Source of the DNA: Xiphias gladius
Taxonomy: Eukaryota > Chordata > Actinopteri > Istiophoriformes > Xiphiidae
DNA length: 64,000 bases
Assembly: GCF_016859285.1 (NCBI RefSeq)
Contig: NC_053421.1
Coordinates: 5,771,600-5,835,599, forward strand
Direction of reading: 5' to 3'
Shown in pieces: positions 3,396 to 64,000 of this stretch. Below the pieces are notes generated by a model that was given only the letters and a program-made list of their open reading frames with translations, was not told the origin of the DNA and ran no database searches. Numbering within the stretch: the stretch's first letter is position 1; the number at the start of each line of letters is the position of its first letter. Both the position numbers and the translations under genes were made by a program.

Positions 3396-3449
<54 letters not shown>
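3396..3449. repeat. (CA)n microsatellite
   Basis: An uninterrupted CA dinucleotide tract of about 27 units in the kcns2-nipal2 intergenic region. Confidence 0.98.
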
Positions 3450-7403: not shown

Positions 7404-33563
<26,160 letters not shown>

Positions 33564-38300: not shown

Positions 38301-41300
38301 CCAAATAATTATTGGTACCACTTTTTGTTGACGTTGCATCATTACATTTTTTGATAACTTGCAAATTTCAGTGCGAAGACAAGCATCACCTTTTCCAATG
38401 TTTGCCTTATAACCCTGCCAAATATTATACACCGAATATATCTTAATGTGTACAACAGCTAGTATTAGAATACGTGAAAAGGTCCTGTTTCAATACTACA
38501 TAAGGCCGTAAGATAGGCTGTAGCTCACGAGAATGGATATTTTGACAGTGTTTTACCAAGTTAAACCAAACTTACTACTACTACTGTAGGGTGGAAAAAA
38601 AAAAAAAAATTGTTCCAAAAATGCAATGTCCTGGCAGAAACGAAGAGATAATAAAGTAAAATTCAATCAAATAAAAGCACTTTCCATGCTACCTACCAGT
38701 GGGACCCAGAAAGCCATGCCCCAGCCTTTAGGAAGCAACACGTCCCATCCAGCACCCCAGGAGCTCATCTCATGTCCCACCTGCTTGCCGGGCTGGTGAA
38801 TCAGCAGGATGGGGACTCGGCCCTGAAGGGGAGTGGGGCTCAGCCTGGAGCCCGGCACCAGCACCTGACTCCTCATACGGTTCAACTCCTGTGGCAAAAA
38901 ACAGAAATTGCTAGAGGTTAGACTAACATCTAAGCTTATCTGTGCTTTCAGAAATAGAGCTGTAGGCATTTAAAAAAAAAAAAAAGACAATAACCATTAG
39001 TGGAAATGACTGTATGAAATTTCTGGTAGAAAGAAAATGATAAGCTACCTGCTCTGAAATCTTGTTATCAGTGACGTTGTCCCGCACGGACTGCTCCCAC
39101 AGGAAACTCTGACAGCAGTGTGCTGGTACTCCTTGCAGCATCAGCTCCCTCCTCTTCTCCTCGTCCGCCCCTGGAAGAACCACACGGCACAGACACATGG
39201 CACGCTCCTGTATGACCAGCTTCACTCACTAGCATCAGTGACATACGCAGCTCTCTACGTCTGATTTATAACCCAAAATCTGGTGACCTGATCACTGATT
39301 AATAGAGTTCATTCAGCTGTGCAAACAGGAACGTTATGAAACAGTCGCCTATTTTCATATTATTTTTATATGATGCAACTTCACTTATGCGGGTTTGGTG
39401 ATTCTTAGCCTGAAAGGATAGTTTTGCTCAGCAAAATTGCATACTGTAAATGCCGAATGGAACGCAGCAAAAAATCTGCCACTTTTACTGGTTTCACAAT
39501 GGTAATATGTAGCCTTTGGTGTTCAACCATCAAGTTATGCTTCAGTGCATCAATATAAAGAATCTATATGACTTCAAGACTTTCAAATCCTACTGAAGAT
39601 TTGTTATTACATTACAGAGCATCAGGACAATTTATGTAGTAAGTGATTCTAATCATTTTTTAGATTCGATACTGCAGCTCTTGGAAAAGACCTGTTAAAA
39701 GGCTTTACTCAAAAACAGACAACAGATCAAAATCAACAGATAGCCCAATAACCTCCAAGATCTCCAAGGCCTGGATCTCCATTCAAGTGAAGAATAAACA
39801 CAGAGTATGATTTACGAGCACTACTGGCTTCTGAGTCTGCTCAGGCTGAGGGAAAGCATGAAGTTGTTGTTGTTGCCATAAGCAGATCTGTTGAAAAATA
39901 TTCAGTCTCACTGCATCTCATGAAACTAGTGACACCTTCCGCTGTTCTTCTGATCAGCAGAAAAACTGATGATGAACAAGAGCTTTGGTCAGAGTTTAAA
40001 AAAAAGGATCTGATGATTACATGTCACTATGACATGACTTGAAGAATAATCTTGGTTATTTTAGGCCTGGGCTTTATTATCCTCACCATTATGGCTGCAG
40101 ATGCAGATCAAGGTCCTTGCAATACTAACACAAAAAAAAAATTAGTATCTTATATTTGCTTATGGTTGCTTTTAAATTCATGTAAGATTTTGGATAAGGG
40201 TATTCCAGTTAGTAAAATACATAATAAATCAATACATGCCTTTCAAGGGGGAAGTGATTAAATCCTGTTCCTCCAACCCACACACTTACTACAATGTGAA
40301 CACAGACAATCCTGCCTCTGGTATTATCACTGAAATGAAATTTTCCGTGCATTATGGGTTTGAGAGGATTTTTTTCTCCCTAAACTTATTGTAAACCAGA
40401 GATGTGCAAACTGCGAAAAGCTCTACAGTGATGGGATTGACAAAATTTTCTTTTATCTTCAGAGTATCTCCTCATAGCCAGTGAATCAGCTGTTGTCAGT
40501 CACTGAGGGTGTGTTTGGAGTACAGGGTCCTGCCAGGATTCGAACCTGGAACATCTGCATGGCCAGGCAGAGGCCCCCTGGAGCACAGAACCAGATGTGT
40601 ACTCACTGAAACAACCCCAGGACCAGACCCAACAGACTGATTCGGTGCTCAACTATACATATGTCTTATTTAATAGAATATTAGGTCCATCTGCACACTG
40701 CATGACGTACAAGGCCGCATTAGGAAACAGAGTATAACAACAACTATTGAATGACTGAAATCTGGGGAAGTAATCTATGGTTTTCATGCCCCTATAATCA
40801 TCTGTATTTGTAAACCAACTGCCCGCTCTTCTGCCGGTTTGGTAGGTCAGATTTTACCTTGTGTCTGCTTTACACAGGGCAAAGCTTTAACCTTCTTTGT
40901 AGGTAAAGTCAGCCTAGGGTCATCTACAGCCAGGCCTAGCACTGTGCCTGAGGGGAGCTCTCCAGTTGAATAGATATCTGGATGAAGGAAAACATTCATT
41001 GTTAGATAAACATTCATAACAGACGACAAACAGTAACAATATAAATTATTTCACACTGAAAAATATAAATAAACCTTTTAGTATGTCAAAGACATCCGAT
41101 TGTTGTCGATGCAGATTCATCTTGCTCTCGTCTTTGCAGTGCTCAGGCCACCAGAGGGAGGATGGCTGGGATTTATTCATTTCCTTAAAAACAGAAGAAA
41201 GAAATACACGGTTATTCAGTGTGAAAGGCAAATAGACCTCAGAGGCTCTTTTCTTTTTCATGTTGATAACATTGTAATCCTTACATCACAGTCTGTAGCT

Positions 41301-52055: not shown

Positions 52056-55000
52056 TCAGTCCTCCTTTTTGGTTTTCTTGCTCTCTGTATCCTGAGAGGC
52101 TTCTGTTGCACACACCACTGCATACACACACAAGGAGAAGAAATCAATACATGACATGTTCATTCAATACAAGCCACATTCTAGTCTTTCATGCTGAGGG
52201 CACTTTGAGCTTGTTTGACATATGACTTTACCATCATCAAAATGAGGACATACAATAACTGCTGTCATAACAGCCCACGGAGGAGAAGTGAAGCATTAAC
52301 ATTCCCTCTTAAGCACATCTGGTTCCGCTGAACTGGTTTACTAGTGACTGACCAGCCCCCTCGCACAAACACGCACACACTGCACTGTGTGATAATTGGT
52401 CTGGCCGGCACAAAGCATAGCCTCTAGAGAGATAGCCTCATAAAGTTATGCAAGGTCTTCCACACCAGACCGGTAGTCCGCACGTGCTGCCTGGAGGGGC
52501 GTCTCTGCCCTGAAAGTACAACGTGTTCTCTGACAGTCAAGAGTGGGGTGCCGCCTCAACTGCGAGCCATGAGTGCTGCCCCTTACACACGGCAACTGAC
52601 CACTGGAGGTACATTTAGAGAGTTAATATGCTCAGTGTATATACTGAATAGCAGCTCATTTCTTTTAGCAGACCTTGCTTCCCCAACAAAGCCAATAGTC
52701 ACTAATTCAGTACTGTGTATACTTTGGGTATTACTTATATTTTAACTGGAGAATATCTGGTCTCTGTAATGAAAAGGTGTAAAATTCCACATATTGTAGC
52801 CAAAACAGGTAAATTTATTGCTTTCATAGCTTATGTCTGTATCTGTAATGAATACCATTAGTTTCAATTCTTAGTAAACACTGTATACATACAATGTTAT
52901 AAATGAAATAATAGTATAATGCAGGTGATATAACAGGGCAAAATCTTGCAGATTAATATCTTGGAGCAATCAACTGAATTTCTCTTTAAATGAGCCCTGA
53001 AATTTTTTTTACTTCCACATTTTGCCTGATGATCGGAATCTCGTCAGGCCTGTATAGGATCTACATTGTCGTATGTAATTAGAGGTTGGAGGGGATGACC
53101 ATGCCGTACGCAGGTCACAATAGAGCATAATGAGTGAGTGTTGCGTGACTGGAGCTATTGTGCTCACAATATGTTCCTGCTATGATCGACACACTCAAGA
53201 CGAGCTACCCAGAGTGTGTATGGCTGCTTTCTGTGCCTCACACTACGTTATGGGTTCAGCCTCACAGGCCCAACAATATCCAATTCATCCTGTCAACCAA
53301 TCACAGGAGTACAAACAGGACCCTGTGTGGGGGATTGTTAGTGCAACAACAATTGAATGGTTTACTGAGAGTTTGCTGTTGCTAATCATGCATGCGTTGG
53401 ATACCGGCATAGTTACCAATGGCAGCACCTTTGAGGGGGTGATGTTGTAAAATGCTGTCTTTCTTGCTTTGCCATACATGTGGCAAGAAGATGGATTGGC
53501 TGTTTGGAGATGTGAAGGACCATTATTTATTTACCTGGATGTGAACAAGATCTTCATATCTCTCTGTTGAACATCACTGACTCTGCCTTTGCTCACCTTT
53601 CTCCTTTTTCTCCCTTCCCACCTCTTTGTGCTTGTTTGCGCCTGCTCAGGGCCTAACACATGTTTGCATAGATTTCCCAAATATTTCAGCCACTGGCAAT
53701 GCTGCACCATTCGATCTCCACCCAAAAACTGTCAGAATTTGTCATTCATGCTGTAACAAGCAGGATATCATGACACCTTAAAGTCAGAGTTAGCATGACA
53801 GGCTTGTCATGGAAACAACTCTGTATTTGCTCATGTAGATCACTGAGCGAAACAAAACTGGCATAAACTCCCTCAAGGCATACAGTACACTCTTTAATAA
53901 TTGCAGTCACTGTCTTATTGTTGTCACCTTTCAATCATCAATTGTTTTACTCTGGAGGAAATGTGACCACACCATATTGCAGTTTGTAAACTGTCACATG
54001 TAGAATATTAAGAAAGTCTGCTTTAAGTGGCTAAATACAGTTCTAAATATAGATTCTGTTCTAGGAATCTTTGTACTTTTCTTTTTTGATTACTGAAAAA
54101 TGGGGCCTAAGAGCTGTTTCTGTATTTGACAAGGCCAAGAGGCAATGTAAAATTTATGATTGGATAAGAAAGAGAGCAATCTTAGGGCGTTAGTGTTTCA
54201 TACCTGTGGGTGAGGGTTCAGGGGCTGGTGCTGGGGTGGGCTCAACCACAGGAGCCTCTGCTGGGGCTGCATTGACCACCATGGACTCTGAGGTCACAGT
54301 TGCTGGTGATGTTTCTGGGGCTACTTCTGCGGGCGTCTCTGAAATGGCTGGTGTGGATGCTGAAGCCTCTGCCATCTGGATCGACTCAGCAGCAGCAGAT
54401 TCAGCTTCTGGAGCCACAGGAGGGGTGGCCTCCGTGGGGCAGGGTGCTTCTGCTGGTGGGGCAGTCTCAGCAGAGGCTGCAGGAGGTTCTGTTGCCACTT
54501 CAGCAGCAGGCTGAGTCTCAGCGCTGACCTCAACTCTGACTGGAGATAATGGATGCATCTCTGGAATAGTTGCTGCAGCAATCTCGGTATCTATGACAGG
54601 CTCTGCAGCCTCTACAGGTGCTGAGGATTCGCTCGGTGCTGAAGCCTCATCTGGTACTATAGCTTCACCTGGTGCCGCAGCCTCAGCTGGTGCTGGTGCT
54701 GAAATTTCACCTGGTTCTGAGGATTCAGCTGGTGTTGCTGAAGCAGTCTCTGGTGCCACATTGTCAGTCGGAGCCTCTGCCTCCACAGGAGCAGCCACTT
54801 CTGCAGGCGCCTCAGCGGACACGGTTACTGCCTCTTCCACAACTACTAGGTCCTCTGCTGGCTCGGATACAACGGGTTCAACAGCAGGGGTGGCAACTTC
54901 AGGAGAGGCCTCAGCTGGCACAGCAGTAACCCCCTCAACGACAGCAGGGGCCTCTGCCTGCACTGCTACAACAGATTCAACGACGGGGGCCTCCTTTGCA

Positions 55001-57770
55001 GCCTCAGCAAGGGCTTCGACCTCAGGGGTGGCCTCAGCCACTACAGTTTCTACAGGGGCAACTTCCTCTACAAGGGGTAGTGCCTCCACCACCACTACAG
55101 CAGCTTCGGGTTCAGTAAAGACTTCTGCTGGAGCAGCAGCTGGAGCAGCAGCCGGAGCCTCTGGAGCTGGCTCTTCAGGGGCAACAGGTTCTGGCCGTGG
55201 TTCAGGAGCTGCCAGAAGGTCCTCTCCAGAGCCAAGATCCTCCTGGGCCTCCAGGGCCACTAACACCGCCTCTGTCTCATCATCGGTTCCTGGTTGAAGA
55301 TCATCTGGTAAAGCAGTCTGCACGGGCAGCTGCATCTGGTCCTCGATGGTTTGAGCATCTTCTGCGATGATACCGTTTCGGACTGCTGTCAATACAGGGA
55401 CAAGAAAAGCTTGATTAGGACTTACAACAACCATGTGACACTAATCAATCTTAGTGAGTCCTTTCAACTGGTAATGTCCTGCTAATCTTTAACACTGAAG
55501 ACATGACAACACTGAGCAACAAAAAAGTCTTGAGGAAAGTTACTCATTTGAATTAGTTTGAAGTGAATCTGTCCTTGAGACCTGAATCTGTCCTATTGAC
55601 CTGAATAGTTTCGTTGAAACACATTGATGTCAAAATAATAATGTCCTGAAAATCTGTTAAAACTATACATTAATACAATTAAGTATTGCATTAAAAATAT
55701 TATAACCAATGCATTCTATGTGCACGTGGACAATAATTTATCAATGTGGATTACTTTAACTCACTATAACACATAAAAGCAGAACTTCAGCCTAACTCAA
55801 CGTGGCATGCAGGAGACAGGAAATAAGAAATAAGGGGCACACAGAATCCGTGCTGAGGAAAACATCTTTTCATTTCCGTAGCTGAAAATATGATTTATTG
55901 AAGCCTGTCTTTGTCTAAAGCCCTGAGGACATGCAAGTCACTCTCAAAGGAAATAAAATACACATGACGATGGCTTTGCTGCTGTTGGAGAGATGACTAT
56001 ACCTTTATTCTTTTTATTCCCTGACCCAGGTTCTTAAATTTTTGTTCGCGTGAACATGCCTTGGGAAAAACTATAGTAGATGAGGAACAAGAGTGGGCTT
56101 GGATACTTTAACTCAAATGTGAGGAGCTTCAGTGCACATCTCAGTTACAAGAATTGTAACAACCTAACCGAAGCTTTTAATGTGTATTATCATTTTACAG
56201 ATAACTGGGTGGACATTGTTCACAAATGAGACAAACCAGATGGGTTCAGTTGGCGGAACGGGTGGACAGTTTGAATGCTGCAGCTTCCTGATTTTATTTG
56301 TCTGTCAGAAGGGGTAAAAATAGCTGAGAGTGATGGGTGGAAGGGAATGTGACGGCCTGGCAACTCGAATGAAAATGAGCCAGTGGAAGAACACGCAACA
56401 CAGAAAAGTATGTAGGTGGCGTGAAATATATTTTTTATGATACCACATTTGAGCCAAGAGTGTAGAAGTTTTAAAGTACAGGTGTTTAGGCAGTGTTTTG
56501 GGTTTTTTTGTTTTTTTTACAACCTTTAAATCCTTGTAAAGTTTCTTGATTTCCAACATGTTCTCCATCAGTCTCCTATTCTTTAACCAGAAATCCAACT
56601 CACAGAGCAGGTATCACACGGCGCAGAAAGCTTTTGTCTGAACACTAGGACAGAACTGGTGTTGAAAAGTGAAAAAACGTGTGTTTGGGTCGAGACAGAG
56701 CCAGCCTCTCCAAGCATGGATGACTTGTGTGTCAACATGATTTAGCAGCCAAAGATGACAGAGATCCCAGTCAAAACAGTGGGATGGCTGGCCAGAAGCA
56801 CAAGGGGCCCAGACAGGGGATGGGACCAGTGGTGACTTGGATGGCATACAGTTGGTTTGTTAAACAGACTGTATACTGTATGATTTAAACCTCCACCCAT
56901 TCAGCCAGTTTTAGAGAAGACTGCCTGCGCAAAGAGTACAATAACTGGTTTTCTTGTTGGGATGATGTCAGGGCCTGGAAAGCTTCTCCAGGTGACCATT
57001 GCTTGCTGGCTAGAGGGACAATGCCCTGACACAAACATCATACAGTGACATAGTGGAAGATGAAAATGCTGTACATGAATACAGAGGCACTATGCCAGTA
57101 CATAACACTTGTTTAGGCTGCTTACTCAAAAACTAGAAGGTACATCTTTTCTCAAATTACTAACTTGAATGGAATCAAAGCAATTAACGTGCAAAAAGAA
57201 ACATTTTCTAACATGGGCAGTGGCTGTCATGTCATGTGTACGGGAGGAAATGCAGTGAGAACATAATGTACATGCAGCTGTGCCTGGCATGACATAGCCA
57301 TGTGCCAGTAGGATGTTGGACCAATGAATGGACAATCGTGGTCTGTGTCAGGCCTCTTGGTGGGCGCCTGCACAGGCTTGAATGCAGAGTACATACTCAA
57401 AGCAAAACAAACCAAAGCCATTACCCAGAGAGCATGACTGCATGTTGAGATGCAAACCTGTTTAGGTCAGACTTTGCTGTCCCAGGCAGAGGAATTTCAG
57501 AGAAGCCTGAAAACATCTGGGGCCTTCTCTTAAAGCCATCAATCTTCCAGCCTCTCCTCTTTTGCCTTTGTAATCCTGCAATTATTGTGTGAGAGCTTTA
57601 AATTCAGGGAGCGAACTTCAAGCATTCCTTGTCATGCAAACACTGAGGACAATCTAAGTGACACGCTTTTTGACTGACTTTTTTCGGCATGCAAATTTTG
57701 GAAACATGACCAGATGCACACTGTCTTTTAGATCACATCCACCTGATCTTGTAGAAGATAAACTCTTGTG

Positions 57771-57813
<43 letters not shown>

Positions 57814-58489
57814 AATATCTCAAGTCATAAATCAGACTGCTGCACAGTGGCAGGAAACAGGTTGGGTCGCAACTCTTGGCTCAGGCTGAAAATCGACAGT
57901 TAGACACTCCCAGCTAGCTTTTACATAGTATTACTCTAGGAGTTGCATGCGCCCTTAGCTAATTCTACAAATCTAGATTAATCTAAACCCCCCTAGTGCA
58001 CTATCTGGAATAAGGCAGATGTCTCATTTCATCGGTAAATCATGCAGTGCAGTTTACAGTTTTTGTCAGAGGATGTCATGCAAAAAAAATGACTAACGAA
58101 AAGTAAATGCCATCCACTTCTGGTCACTGATGAGAAAATAGGTCAACATGAATAATTCTCTTCACTGCAGTGTGCTGTACAGCAGAGTAAATGGAAAAGC
58201 ACACGGTGTACCAGGCCTACCAGCAGCAGCCACACGCCCCTCAGCAGGACCTGACTCAGAAAGTAACAGAGCGACTGCAGTACATATCTTGAGAAACGTA
58301 TATATCATACTTGGTGCTCACCAGTTGAAAAACGCACAAACAGTCAAAGATAAAAGACAATTTTATAAATTTACACTTTAGAAAAGATGATCATTACTTA
58401 CCTAATGTATCTCCATTGCTCTCCTCTGGCTTTGTACCTGGTCTTTTCTCTTGATCAACAGTCTGTGCACTGGACGAGGAGCACCCCAT
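52056..58489 (-). CDS. erich5: Glutamate-rich protein 5 (ERICH5 / C8orf47 orthologue)
   Basis: Three coding exons in transcript order: 58489-58402, 55385-54204, 52102-52056; 1317 bases, 438 residues, phases 1 and 1. The N-terminus MGCSSSSAQT is a textbook N-myristoylation signal with an adjacent palmitoylatable Cys and matches the MGCSSS start of ERICH5. Exon 2 encodes a long unstructured region dominated by Ala, Glu, Pro, Val and Ser (PAE, EAP, EVA repeats, about residues 90-420) after a better-conserved acidic start, VRNGIIAEDAQTIEDQMQLP. Exon 3 adds EASQDTESKKTKKED, a charged tail. The third exon is inferred from an ACAG acceptor and a perfect phase match; without it the frame reads through the donor to a TAA at 54190. 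Function is unknown; membrane attachment is inferred from the N-terminus. Identity rests on the start motif, composition and position between rida and matn2. Confidence 0.87.
52103..54203 (-). other. erich5: erich5 intron 2
   Basis: A 2.1 kb intron if the third exon is right; otherwise partly 3' UTR. Nothing else was recognised in it. Open frames near 53130-53450 have no family signature. Confidence 0.45.
55386..58401 (-). other. erich5: erich5 intron 1
   Basis: A 3 kb intron. It contains the (GT)n tract at 57773-57810. No other feature was identified. Confidence 0.6.
57773..57810. repeat. (GT)n microsatellite
   Basis: About 19 GT units within erich5 intron 1. Confidence 0.97.
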
Positions 58490-59049
58490 GTTTGACAAAA
58501 GGGCTGAGATGAACAAAAAAAAACTTGGAACCTATTAAGGAGCAAACAAAAGTCCCAGTGCTCTCTTTTAGCAAAGACAGAGACTGCCTACCAGTGAAAA
58601 CATGGACAGCTAAACTCTCTTTAGTTCCTAAGAGTAGCTGGGCACCATTATCTCTCTGACTGTGTGCTCATGCATGGCCTGCTGCCCTCTTGCCCCAGAC
58701 AAGGCTCTGTTGTGAACATACAGCTAAGCAGTGCAGGCGCTAAAGCTGAATGTTCCTTGACTGCCTTCTGCTCACAGTCACTCTATACATACTGGAGGAG
58801 GAGGCAAACGTGTGCATGAAGTGTGTGTCCTCCCCTTTATAGGAGTATCCCCTCTGGAGGAGATCTACCACCTTGTGGCAGTGTTTAGAGTAGCACATGT
58901 ACAATGTATTTCTTTCTCCACAGCTTGAACGGCTTTGATTAAATTCTGTCCTTGCTGTAACAGTAAGTACTAAAGATGACTTGGAAAATTGTTTAAAAGT
59001 CCCCCTGTAGAGATCATCACAAAACCTAATAAAAACATGATGTGAAGTG
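58490..59049. other. Gap between erich5 start and matn2 3' end
   Basis: Probably the erich5 5' UTR and promoter (transcribed leftward). No RPL30 exon, which separates these genes in mammals, was recognised here. Confidence 0.5.
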
Positions 59050-59055
59050 TTTATT
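59050..59055 (-). promoter_or_regulatory. matn2: matn2 polyadenylation signal
   Basis: AATAAA on the minus strand about 220 bases after the matn2 stop codon at 59274. It supports 59274-59329 as the true last exon. Confidence 0.6.
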
Positions 59056-59273: not shown

Positions 59274-62200
59274 TTATTTGTGCGCAAGTTGATTCTCGAG
59301 TGTCTCCAGCTTCTCTGACACGGCTTCAAGTAGACATGTTAAGGAAAGATGCGGATCCAAAAGAAAACACAGGCTATCAAGTTAGGAAACCTCTTTTGTA
59401 TTCCCTTAAAGAGAATTTATGTTTAAATAACCACGACAGTTTGAAACAAAGGTATTTCACCACCCCCAAAAATGACTGATGACTGATGAGGTCTATGGAT
59501 GTGCAAAGTCACAGTCCCCTGTCTCTTGGTTGCAGAGCTGGAGGTTTGCTTCTCCACACCCTTTGATTTTACCATTATTGTGTCGATGGGCGATGTTCAT
59601 ATGGGTCATTTGCCACTTAAAGCACGGCACACATAAATCATACTGACCTCTGTCTTTTTTTTTTTTTTTTTTGCCTGTGTTCTGCGTGTACTGACTCCTC
59701 TAGTGGTTGATGTGAATAAGTACATTCACTCAAGTACTGGACATAAGCACAAGTTTGCACAAACACGAGTTTGTTATATTTTAATTCCACTACATTTCAG
59801 AGAAAAATATTGTACTTTTTACTCCACTACATTTATCTGACAGCTATAGTCACTAGTTACTATTCAGATTACAACTTCTACATCTACAAAATATTGGCTA
59901 AGTTGTGTGACGCCTTACGTCAACAGTGTCTACTGGGGGCCCTTCTAAAGTGTTTCACAAATCCATTAGTTGTCAGAAGCTTGACCAAAGAGAGAGAGTG
60001 AAAGATTTCCCCTTGAAATTCATCAGATAATTTAATCTAAATAAGTTTTTAAAGCACACAGAGGTAAAACTATCCAATATTTTACAAAATATTTTACCAC
60101 TGGACTAAACTAGCTAACAGTGTGTAAAGACGTTAAAACTAGCTCCACCTGGACCAGGTACAACAGCAATGCATCAGTTTTAAGAATCTAATAGGGACAT
60201 ATCAGTCACAGGGGCCACTTTACTGTCAAACCAATACGTTTAATTTTTAATTGTTTAAATACATTTTGTTGCTAATATTTGTAACAGAGTGGTTTTGCAT
60301 TTATCTATTAGTACTTTTACTTCACTAAGTAAAGGATCCGAATACCCCTTTTGTATTGGAGCCTAGGCTGTTGACTTTCTACAGGTGTAGTAACTGGTCA
60401 GAACCAACTCATCAGCATTCATGGTTCCATACTGTGATTTAAGTTAAAAGAGGCACAACACAGCACACAAATGTCATTTGAATAATGTTTGCACTTATTA
60501 GCACTGCTGGACGTTTCTCAAGACAATGTGTGTGAAACGACCAACAGTGCTAATGTGTAGTCTGCCCTGGAAAAGCATCCTTAGCGGCAAATACCCAGAC
60601 TTAAAACTGTAATCACAGGTAGCTGTCTATTCACTTGCACTGCTCGTCCATCATTTATATGTGGCCAATACTTTGGCATAGGTAGAGCTGCCAATCTGCC
60701 AAAAAACCATACTGACGGATATTGTAATTGTGGTGTTGACAGCTATTCAGAAAAGGATATTATTCTGCACCAGGTTCTTCAGCTTCTCAGTGACCTGGTT
60801 TTGAAACATTAACACGTTCTCGCACTTGCACATGTTTACATCAGATGGTTTGTCTGTGGGGAAGAACTGAAGTCAGAAAATTCTGTCCTTGGATCTGTTT
60901 ATCTTTTCTCACCTTCTCCCTCTTACCCTTTTCCTCAACCTATCTTTTCTGATCTCCCCCTGCGGGTTTCCCTTCCTGTCTGTGTCTGTAGCAAATGCAG
61001 TAGATGTGGGTGAGATACAGTTAGGAGTGCGCATGAATGGAGAGTAGAAATGGCCGATGTGTTTTATGATATGGAGATAGAGCATAGTGCTCATGCTCTA
61101 AAAATCATACAGTTGCTTGAATCAGTAATCATAATGGCAGCAGTAGGTGGCAGCGATGCAACATTTTAGTTACTGAACATGTTCAAGAATACTGAGCTGT
61201 AGATGAAACAGCACTGAACGGTTCTATTACTTGTCTGATATTACTCTAGATTTCAACACTTTAACAAAAGCACTTTAACACAATTATTGAGACACTGTTT
61301 GTTTTGTTGGAACTTCTTGGGACAAACTTCTTGTTTGACAGAACAGTTCAGCCATGTGTGGAGTACCTTTACATATCCTGGACTTGAGCTTCTTTGTGAT
61401 TTCTCCCAACTTTCCAAAATCCTCAGCATAATATAGGTGGTTCTCATCAGGCTCTGACGCTATTTCTCTCAGCTCCTGTTCGATGGCTTTGCCAACACCC
61501 AAGGCGTACATGGTGACTCCTGAAAGTGAAAGAAACCAGGATAAGGACAGCAAACTGTCTTTGGAGCAAAGTTCATTTTATACAAATGTTTAATACAACA
61601 AATTCTCAAGCCTCAGTGTGGATGGCAAGGCCAGATATTGAAAATCTCCAATGTAAAAATAAGCGTACCAGACTTTTTAACTTTATTAGCCCATTCAGAA
61701 ACATCATCCTGTGATCTTCCATCAGTGAACACGATGCTGACATGTGGGATGTTCGGCCTGGCGCCTTCTTTGGCTGAAAAGCTGAACTCAAACATGTGGC
61801 GTAAGGCTGAGCCAGTCATAGAACCTTTCCCCATGTACTGCATCCGGGTCACAGCCTTTTTGATGTCCTGCGCTGTGGCGTACTGGCCCAGGGTGAACTC
61901 TGTGCGGACCTTGCTGGAATACTGAAGAAGGCCAACATGTGTGCCTGTCTTGGAAATGTCCAGTGAGTCCACAATGCCGTTTGCAAACTGTTTGACCAGC
62001 TCAAAGTTGGCAGGGCCCAGACTCTTAGAGCCGTCAATCACAAAAACCAGATCCATTACTCCATCGCCACACTCTGCTTCTGTCAGACACAGGGACATGA
62101 AAAACGCGTTTTTTATATGGTTATATAAGGGATATTTTGAAGCCAATGGTCTATATCAAAGAAGGCTAAGATCATACTTTTGCAGCTCCTCCCATCTTCA

Positions 62201-63036
62201 TCCAACATAAATCCCTCAAAACACCTGCAGGTGTAGGAGCCAGCGGTGCTGACACACTGATGCTCACAGCCATGGTCCACTGCCTGACATGGATCCAGAC
62301 CTGTGAGTTGAATTGTAGAGAGAGACAAGGATTAGACTGGTGTTGACAAAATATTTCTGTTTGTAAAACATGGAGGAATGAGTTGCAGTAATCAATAAAA
62401 TTGCAGTTTTTACAGTGGAAGTTTGTTTTCCCTGTTGTAAGCTTCTTGTAAGTCCTCTGTCATGGTCATCAACATTACTAACCAAGTGATGTCTATTCTA
62501 CAAGAAAAGGACTACAAACGTGCAAAACACAGTTATAACTATCTGAAGGTATGAAAGCTTCATCATGGTGAACACAGAACATTCCCTTAATCTGGGGGGA
62601 GGGGAGATTTTTTAGTGAGCACTGGGATTACCACTGACCTCCCAACCGGTGCAAAATTAATTCAAAATTATGTAACACACAAATACTGCAATAGGGGAGA
62701 GCAACATCTGAAATGTGTTCATTTTGCCCCACACAAATATCATCTCTGTTTTTTTTTATAACGTTAACTGTATGATCAGGACTAAAGTCAGGCCAGCCTA
62801 TTTTACAACATGAGTTAATTCTATAATCATATTGTAAATTTGCAACTAAATACCCAATCATATCTTTTATGTGCAGTTTACCAGGCACTTATAATGAATG
62901 CGCTTGGACTCACTCTGACATGTTTTGCCATCAGGTTGGAGTGTGTATCCTTTTCTGCATTTACACACGCATGAATCTCCGGCGCTCACAAAGTCCTGTT
63001 CACAGCCATGTTTCCCATCAGCGCAGTGATCAGTCT
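59274..63036 (-). CDS. matn2: Matrilin-2, C-terminal part (two EGF modules, VWA2, coiled coil)
   Basis: Extracellular-matrix adaptor that oligomerises and links collagen and other matrix proteins. Exons in transcript order: 63036-62914 and 62300-62178 (one six-cysteine EGF module each), 62079-61669 and 61519-61367 (von Willebrand A domain), 60853-60761 and 59329-59274 (coiled coil). The gene continues beyond 64000 on the right, so only the last 318 residues are seen. The VWA domain has a complete metal-binding site (DGSKS, then the Thr in GSMTG, then the Asp in FTDGRSQDD) and the signatures [19 protein letters not shown] and [20 protein letters not shown]. After SRICK a very short linker leads to [13 protein letters not shown] and, across the last intron, [13 protein letters not shown], the matrilin coiled-coil end. 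The linker between VWA2 and CKCEN is far shorter than in mammalian MATN2. All phases agree. Very close to MATN2; a separate fish paralogue is not excluded. Confidence 0.93.
59330..60760 (-). other. matn2: U12-type AT-AC intron of matn2
   Basis: Transcript-sense intron of 1431 bases. It begins ATATCCTTTT at 60760-60751, a perfect U12 AT-AC 5' splice site. Its branch-site motif TTTCCTTAAC lies at 59347-59338, and it ends TCTAC at 59330, with the branch adenosine about 9-10 bases from the end. It splits an Ile codon (A + TT). Matrilin genes are known for an AT-AC intron in the coiled-coil region. It contains a reversed hAT-like element (about 59700-60350). Confidence 0.9.
59700..60350 (-). mobile_element. 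hAT-like ACTTAAGTA-family element inside the matn2 AT-AC intron
   Basis: One end reads TAGTGGTTGATGTGAATAAGTA; the other carries TACTTTTACTTCACTAAGTA and AAGGATCCGAATACCCC, the reverse of the start motif seen at 9189 and 12193. The interior contains CCACTACATTT blocks on one side, typical of this repeat. No transposase. Boundaries are approximate. Confidence 0.55.
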
Positions 63037-64000
63037 CTGCAGGGAAGAGTCAGATTAAGGAGTAATTACTGAGAAAATAAAATAACTCTTTACTGCTTCC
63101 CAAATCTGACTCATGCAAAGGAATTATTACCAGTGGTGATTAAACGTATTGTGTCTGCATTTTGATACTGCCCACAATGAAGTGTTGGTGTTGGGTGATT
63201 ATAATCAGATGCACTTCTAACTCTGTTTATGGACAGGGCTCAGTCCACTGGTCCATCTGTCCACCCAAAACTTTGGTCCAAGGTGAGATATCTCAAAAGC
63301 CAATGGCCAATCATTGTCCCCAAATGGTGAATCATGATGTTTTCAATGACTTCCTGCAATTTCATATTTTATCATCAGGCCAAATTTTAATTAGATATAT
63401 CAAAATCTTATGGACAGATGGTGTAAAATTTACTAAGTACATTCATAATCCATAGAGGATGAACCCTGCTGATTGTGCTGACTCCTTGAACCTTACTCTG
63501 TTGCCACCCTCGGGCCAGAATTTCTACCTGTCTGTTTAATCAACATTTATAAAAAAAATTTTTTTTTAATCTTCATATTGTGATGTGTAAAAAACAATGC
63601 AGCCCCTAGTGGCTGGTAACACTTTTGACATATGTTAAACGTTTCTTTAAGGCACAATTTATGGTCCCAATCAATGCAAAATTACATCTACATTTACAAC
63701 ATCAGTGGCCAGAGTAGAAGAATATTTAGCCCCAGATGGCTAAATAATGTTGAGGTTTATATCTGATTATGACCCACTTTCAAATTTCCCAGCATACAGC
63801 CTCTCTAAGAACACATGAAGCAAGGTAAGCCTTTTATTCAAGAGAGTGAGCAGCTAATAATCAAATTTCATTTTGCATATTTAAAATGCTTGCGGTCGTG
63901 TCGGACTGTTGGACTCAACCACAAAGACAAATTGTTCAGACAGTCCTGTAGCGCTAATGCAACACACTGTAGGTTCAAGGACATCTACAATAGATATTAA
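63037..64000 (-). other. matn2: matn2 intron running off the right edge
   Basis: No further EGF exon was found up to 64000. A fragment of the GCATGTTAGCATGC-family repeat lies at about 63226-63400. Confidence 0.6.
63226..63400 (+). repeat. Fragment of the GCATGTTAGCATGC-family repeat
   Basis: TGGTCCATCTGTCCACC, CTTTGGTCCAAGGTGAGATA, TATCTCAAAAGCCAATGG and a following ATCATCAGGCCAAATTTTAA block parallel the first half of the copy at 17499 (GGTCCACCACTTTGATCC, GTCTTAACAGCTATTGG). Only part of the unit remains. Confidence 0.45.

Follow-up and report, generated by a model that had tools for sequence, protein, structure and literature searches.

The 3' end of a fish gene, very probably matn2, with a predicted U12-type AT-AC intron in its coiled coil

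Where does the matrilin gene on the minus strand of this window end? The window is the whole 64-kb stretch of DNA analysed; it ends at position 64000, so that the 5' portion of the gene falls outside. Downstream of the exon that begins the C-terminal coiled coil, the frame either runs on into a stop codon or continues, across an intron with AT-AC termini, into a further exon. We consider it very probable that the locus belongs to a fish matn2 and represents its 3' end, with a coiled coil that would be encoded by two exons split by a U12-type AT-AC intron; our confidence is high rather than complete because the statement names matn2, and matn4 was allowed for as a rival.

Exon structure and splice signals

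The features of the locus, in the direction of transcription, are as follows.

62914..63036, minus strand: EGF-like exon of matn2 (Pfam cEGF scores 27.8 bits against a cut-off of 26.6; FXa_inhibition, at 27.6 bits, falls short of its 33.4)
62178..62300, minus strand: EGF-like exon of matn2 (Pfam FXa_inhibition 48.2, cEGF 34.9, EGF_CA 30.1 and EGF 24.3 bits, all above cut-offs)
61669..62079, minus strand: opening exon of the final VWA domain, presumably the second (the ORF containing it matches Pfam VWA at 3.1e-45)
61367..61519, minus strand: second exon of the same VWA domain (Pfam VWA 2e-08 within the joined C-terminus)
60853-60761, minus strand: first of the two coiled-coil exons (CKC...LVQN; the Pfam Matrilin_ccoil match spans positions 6-28 if the last exon is left off)
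59330..60760, minus strand: predicted U12-type AT-AC intron of 1431 bases, in phase 1 as judged from the exon lengths (it starts with the donor ATATCCTTTT and closes with AC)
59338..59347, minus strand: branch-site-like TTTCCTTAAC, whose final C precedes the A of AC by 7 bases
59274..59329, minus strand: coding part of the last exon, which closes the split codon and adds 17 codons and TAA (with it the Matrilin_ccoil match reaches position 45 of 45)
59050..59055, minus strand: an AATAAA that probably serves as poly(A) signal for the last exon (the motif is observed, its role presumed)

One reading frame stays open across all six exon pieces; the four introns upstream of the AT-AC intron are all GT-AG and all phase 1, and the acceptor CCCCACAG precedes the coiled-coil exon. 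The combination that marks the matrilin family, namely VWA, EGF-like modules and a C-terminal coiled coil, was recovered with Pfam matches above cut-off, and EGF-type families exceeded their cut-offs in both EGF exons, narrowly so for 62914..63036. A home-made EGF pattern missed both of these exons, its sole match being a CVCV repeat at 3449. In the exon arrangement given above, only about ten residues link the VWA domain to the coiled coil (the intron between them occupying 61366-60854); in mammalian matrilin-2, a longer unique segment lies between the two domains.

The consensus of the U12-type AT-AC 5' splice site is ATATCCTT, and that of the branch site is TTCCTTAAC. Directly after the coiled-coil exon, at 60760-60751 on the minus strand, stands the donor ATATCCTTTT, as an earlier note on this DNA had proposed, with an exact match to ATATCCTT at 60760-60753. 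The branch-like sequence which that note placed at 59347-59338, followed by an AC end, was likewise found: a TTCCTTAAC-like site is present close upstream of the acceptor in the form TTTCCTTAAC, and the intron ends in TTTCCTTAACATGTCTAC at 59330, with the AC at 59331-59330. The distance from branch site to intron end is about 9-10 bases, at the short end of the range for U12 introns. Beyond the AC the protein continues in phase; the split codon, which reads AAT A before the junction and TT after it, closes in phase 1 as claimed, and the frame is kept across 60761/59329. By donor, branch site and acceptor, the 1431-base intron is of the U12-type AT-AC class, its splicing being predicted from these signals. 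Read-through past 60760 would instead meet an in-frame TGA at 60749-60747, after NNILF, and the protein would end in ...LVQNNILF.

The earlier description of the last exon as 56 bases with 18 codons stood in part. The coding part is 56 bases long and runs to a stop, but it holds 17 whole codons plus the split codon, and the 3' UTR had been overlooked. AATAAA motifs are found at 59278, where the motif overlaps the stop, and at 59055, where it is followed by a T-rich, GT-containing stretch; the latter motif appears to be the likelier poly(A) signal, and suggests a poly(A) site near 59035 and a terminal exon of approximately 290 bases including the 3' UTR.

The joined coiled coil and the role of chance

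When the two exons were joined, the C-terminus matched Pfam Matrilin_ccoil over positions 6-45 of 45 with 45.5 bits, and aligned without gaps over 40 positions (E 2e-06) with PDB 1aq5, 'cartilage matrix protein', which we take to be chicken matrilin-1; 15 of 40 positions were identical, 8 of 24 before the junction and 7 of 16 after it. The earlier note had remarked, from the sequence alone, that the joined heptads look like those of other matrilins. The read-through form matched positions 6-28 with 32.6 bits; stopping at the TGA, which was said to remove half of the helix, would cost 17 of the 45 profile positions, less than half.

Copies of ATATCCTTTT in the 64-kb window numbered two, with 0.23 expected, and at least two arose in 3 of 100 shuffles; TTCCTTAAC occurred once (expected 0.55; at least one copy in 40 of 100 shuffles). 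Neither the donor motif nor the branch motif is decisive alone, because short consensus matches occur in the window at a rate not far from chance; the conclusive part is the homologous in-phase peptide that both motifs delimit.

Continuations of the coiled-coil exon were scored against the 1aq5 coiled coil in a fixed register, with this single relative as the reference. Among the 1225 AC acceptors within 20 kb that could be joined to the same donor, the proposed acceptor ranked first with a score of 94, the runner-up reaching 66; the best of 1397 AG acceptors within 20 kb of that donor scored 72. The proposed junction was again the best when any dinucleotide was admitted (n = 19940 within 20 kb; next 72), and also when GT, GC and AT donors were combined with fitting acceptors in 20267 ways (next 69; best GT donor 63), the donors being drawn from a stretch that starts 20 bases into the frame of the exon and ends at the TGA, with the first exon bases left out. 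When the 2 kb downstream were mononucleotide-shuffled 300 times and scanned for AC acceptors only, 94 was never reached; the largest score was 69 and the mean best score 58.

A rough U12 scan, using scoring matrices written from the consensus, found three donors in the window that scored at least 12. Within 10 kb, two donor-branch pairs were found, both with the 60760 donor, and the stronger was the proposed pair. For the second exact ATATCCTTTT, at 23271-23262 on the minus strand, no branch site scoring at least 12 and close enough to an AC or AG was found within 10 kb, and no clear gene was apparent among the ORFs listed around 23262-23271. GTATCCTTTT at 62945 on the plus strand falls within an EGF exon in antisense orientation and was taken as a chance match.

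Gene identity and rival gene ends

Towards the lower coordinates of the window lie POP1 (minus strand; Pfam POP1_N), a Ribonuc_L-PSP gene on the plus strand that was taken as RIDA, and a minus-strand ERICH5-like gene, named from a loose start motif with no family match. The motif (MGC, then S or A) occurs at two places, 58489 and 48330. A minus-strand ORF of 416 amino acids at 54190-55440 has a high content of A, P, E and V. An MGCSSSS stretch is found upstream, at 58489, and together they are perhaps the ERICH5-like gene. Pfam and NCBIfam gave no family match for this ORF, and NCBIfam returned nothing for three neighbouring ORFs, a negative of little weight from a library made for bacteria and archaea. 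At gathering thresholds, Rfam gave a single weak tRNA match of 31.9 bits against a cut-off of 29; it lies on the minus strand at 40525-40592 and may be a tRNA-derived repeat. In the human genome POP1 and RIDA are neighbours of MATN2 on 8q22, and ERICH5 is a neighbour too; RPL30 adjoins human MATN2 as well, and was not found in the window with six short motifs as the query.

By comparison with human gene order, POP1 and RIDA favour matn2 over matn4, and the ERICH5-like gene is a weaker pointer in the same direction. With neighbours that match the surroundings of human MATN2, it is improbable that the intron is as described and the gene is matn4, even though an order of two or more EGF exons, then VWA and coiled coil, is compatible with both genes, and the short linker departs from the longer segment of mammalian matrilin-2. 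The published fish loci also leave room for matn4: according to PMC1464127, Tetraodon MATN2 adjoins LAPTM4B and KCNS2, KCNS2 also adjoins MATN4, and the accession table carries a dash for zebrafish matrilin-2. PMC12673963 describes pikeperch matn2 (matrilin-2-like) as transcribed.

The rival gene ends are less probable. A GT-AG intron that starts inside the coiled-coil exon and leads to some other terminal exon would belong to the usual intron class, and GT dinucleotides are present in the coiled-coil exon, but the best such product within 20 kb reaches 63, compared with 94 for the AT-AC join, and we give this account next to no weight. Were the gene to end by read-through at the TGA, the downstream peptide would be a relic or a product of chance. 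The read-through product lies above the Pfam cut-off (32.6 versus 26.3 bits) and four ATTAAA motifs are found in the intron; set against this, the missing part of the domain is encoded downstream in phase, with a score that none of the 300 shuffles attained, and PMC6865273 attributes minor introns to each of the four matrilin genes. Such an ending is extremely improbable. Retention of the last intron as a switch, giving a matrilin-2 without the last 17 of 45 coiled-coil positions, is hypothetical and very unlikely; if it did take place, nonsense-mediated decay would probably be escaped, because no intron is left downstream.

In the preferred reading, that of a matn2 whose coiled coil is split by an AT-AC intron, the minor spliceosome (U11/U12 and U4atac/U6atac with U5) would remove the 1431 bases and join 60761 to 59329, which would complete the C-terminal oligomerisation helix. 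We infer this splicing from sequence signals, homology and published matrilin genes. The domain match, the 1aq5 alignment, the acceptor scan and the gene neighbourhood agree in supporting a matn2 AT-AC intron.

Comparison with known matrilin introns

The main relevance of the matn2 AT-AC intron is to correct gene annotation; a pipeline that admits only GT-AG introns would shorten the oligomerisation helix and miss the last exon and the 3' UTR. The locus would be a further vertebrate example of a matrilin gene that has the minor intron reported for the family. The known matrilin AT-AC intron probably splits the coiled coil at the same codon. The title of Muratoglu et al. (2000) reports 'conservation of an AT-AC intron in matrilin genes'. 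That matrilin genes carry such an intron, as the earlier note stated, accords with the statement on all four genes in PMC6865273; according to PMC2831892, U12-type introns are conserved in all eight vertebrate lineages in 156 of 180 intron cases. The AT-AC intron described here is an already known feature of the family, and ordinary biology. It shares its AT-AC termini and a matrilin host gene with the known intron, and set against descriptions of the latter it showed no difference; its own length is 1431 bases. The encoded coiled coil has in common with that of 1aq5 the cysteine pair at its start and an ungapped alignment of 40 positions, and differs from it in being identical at only 15 of these and in belonging to another paralogue.
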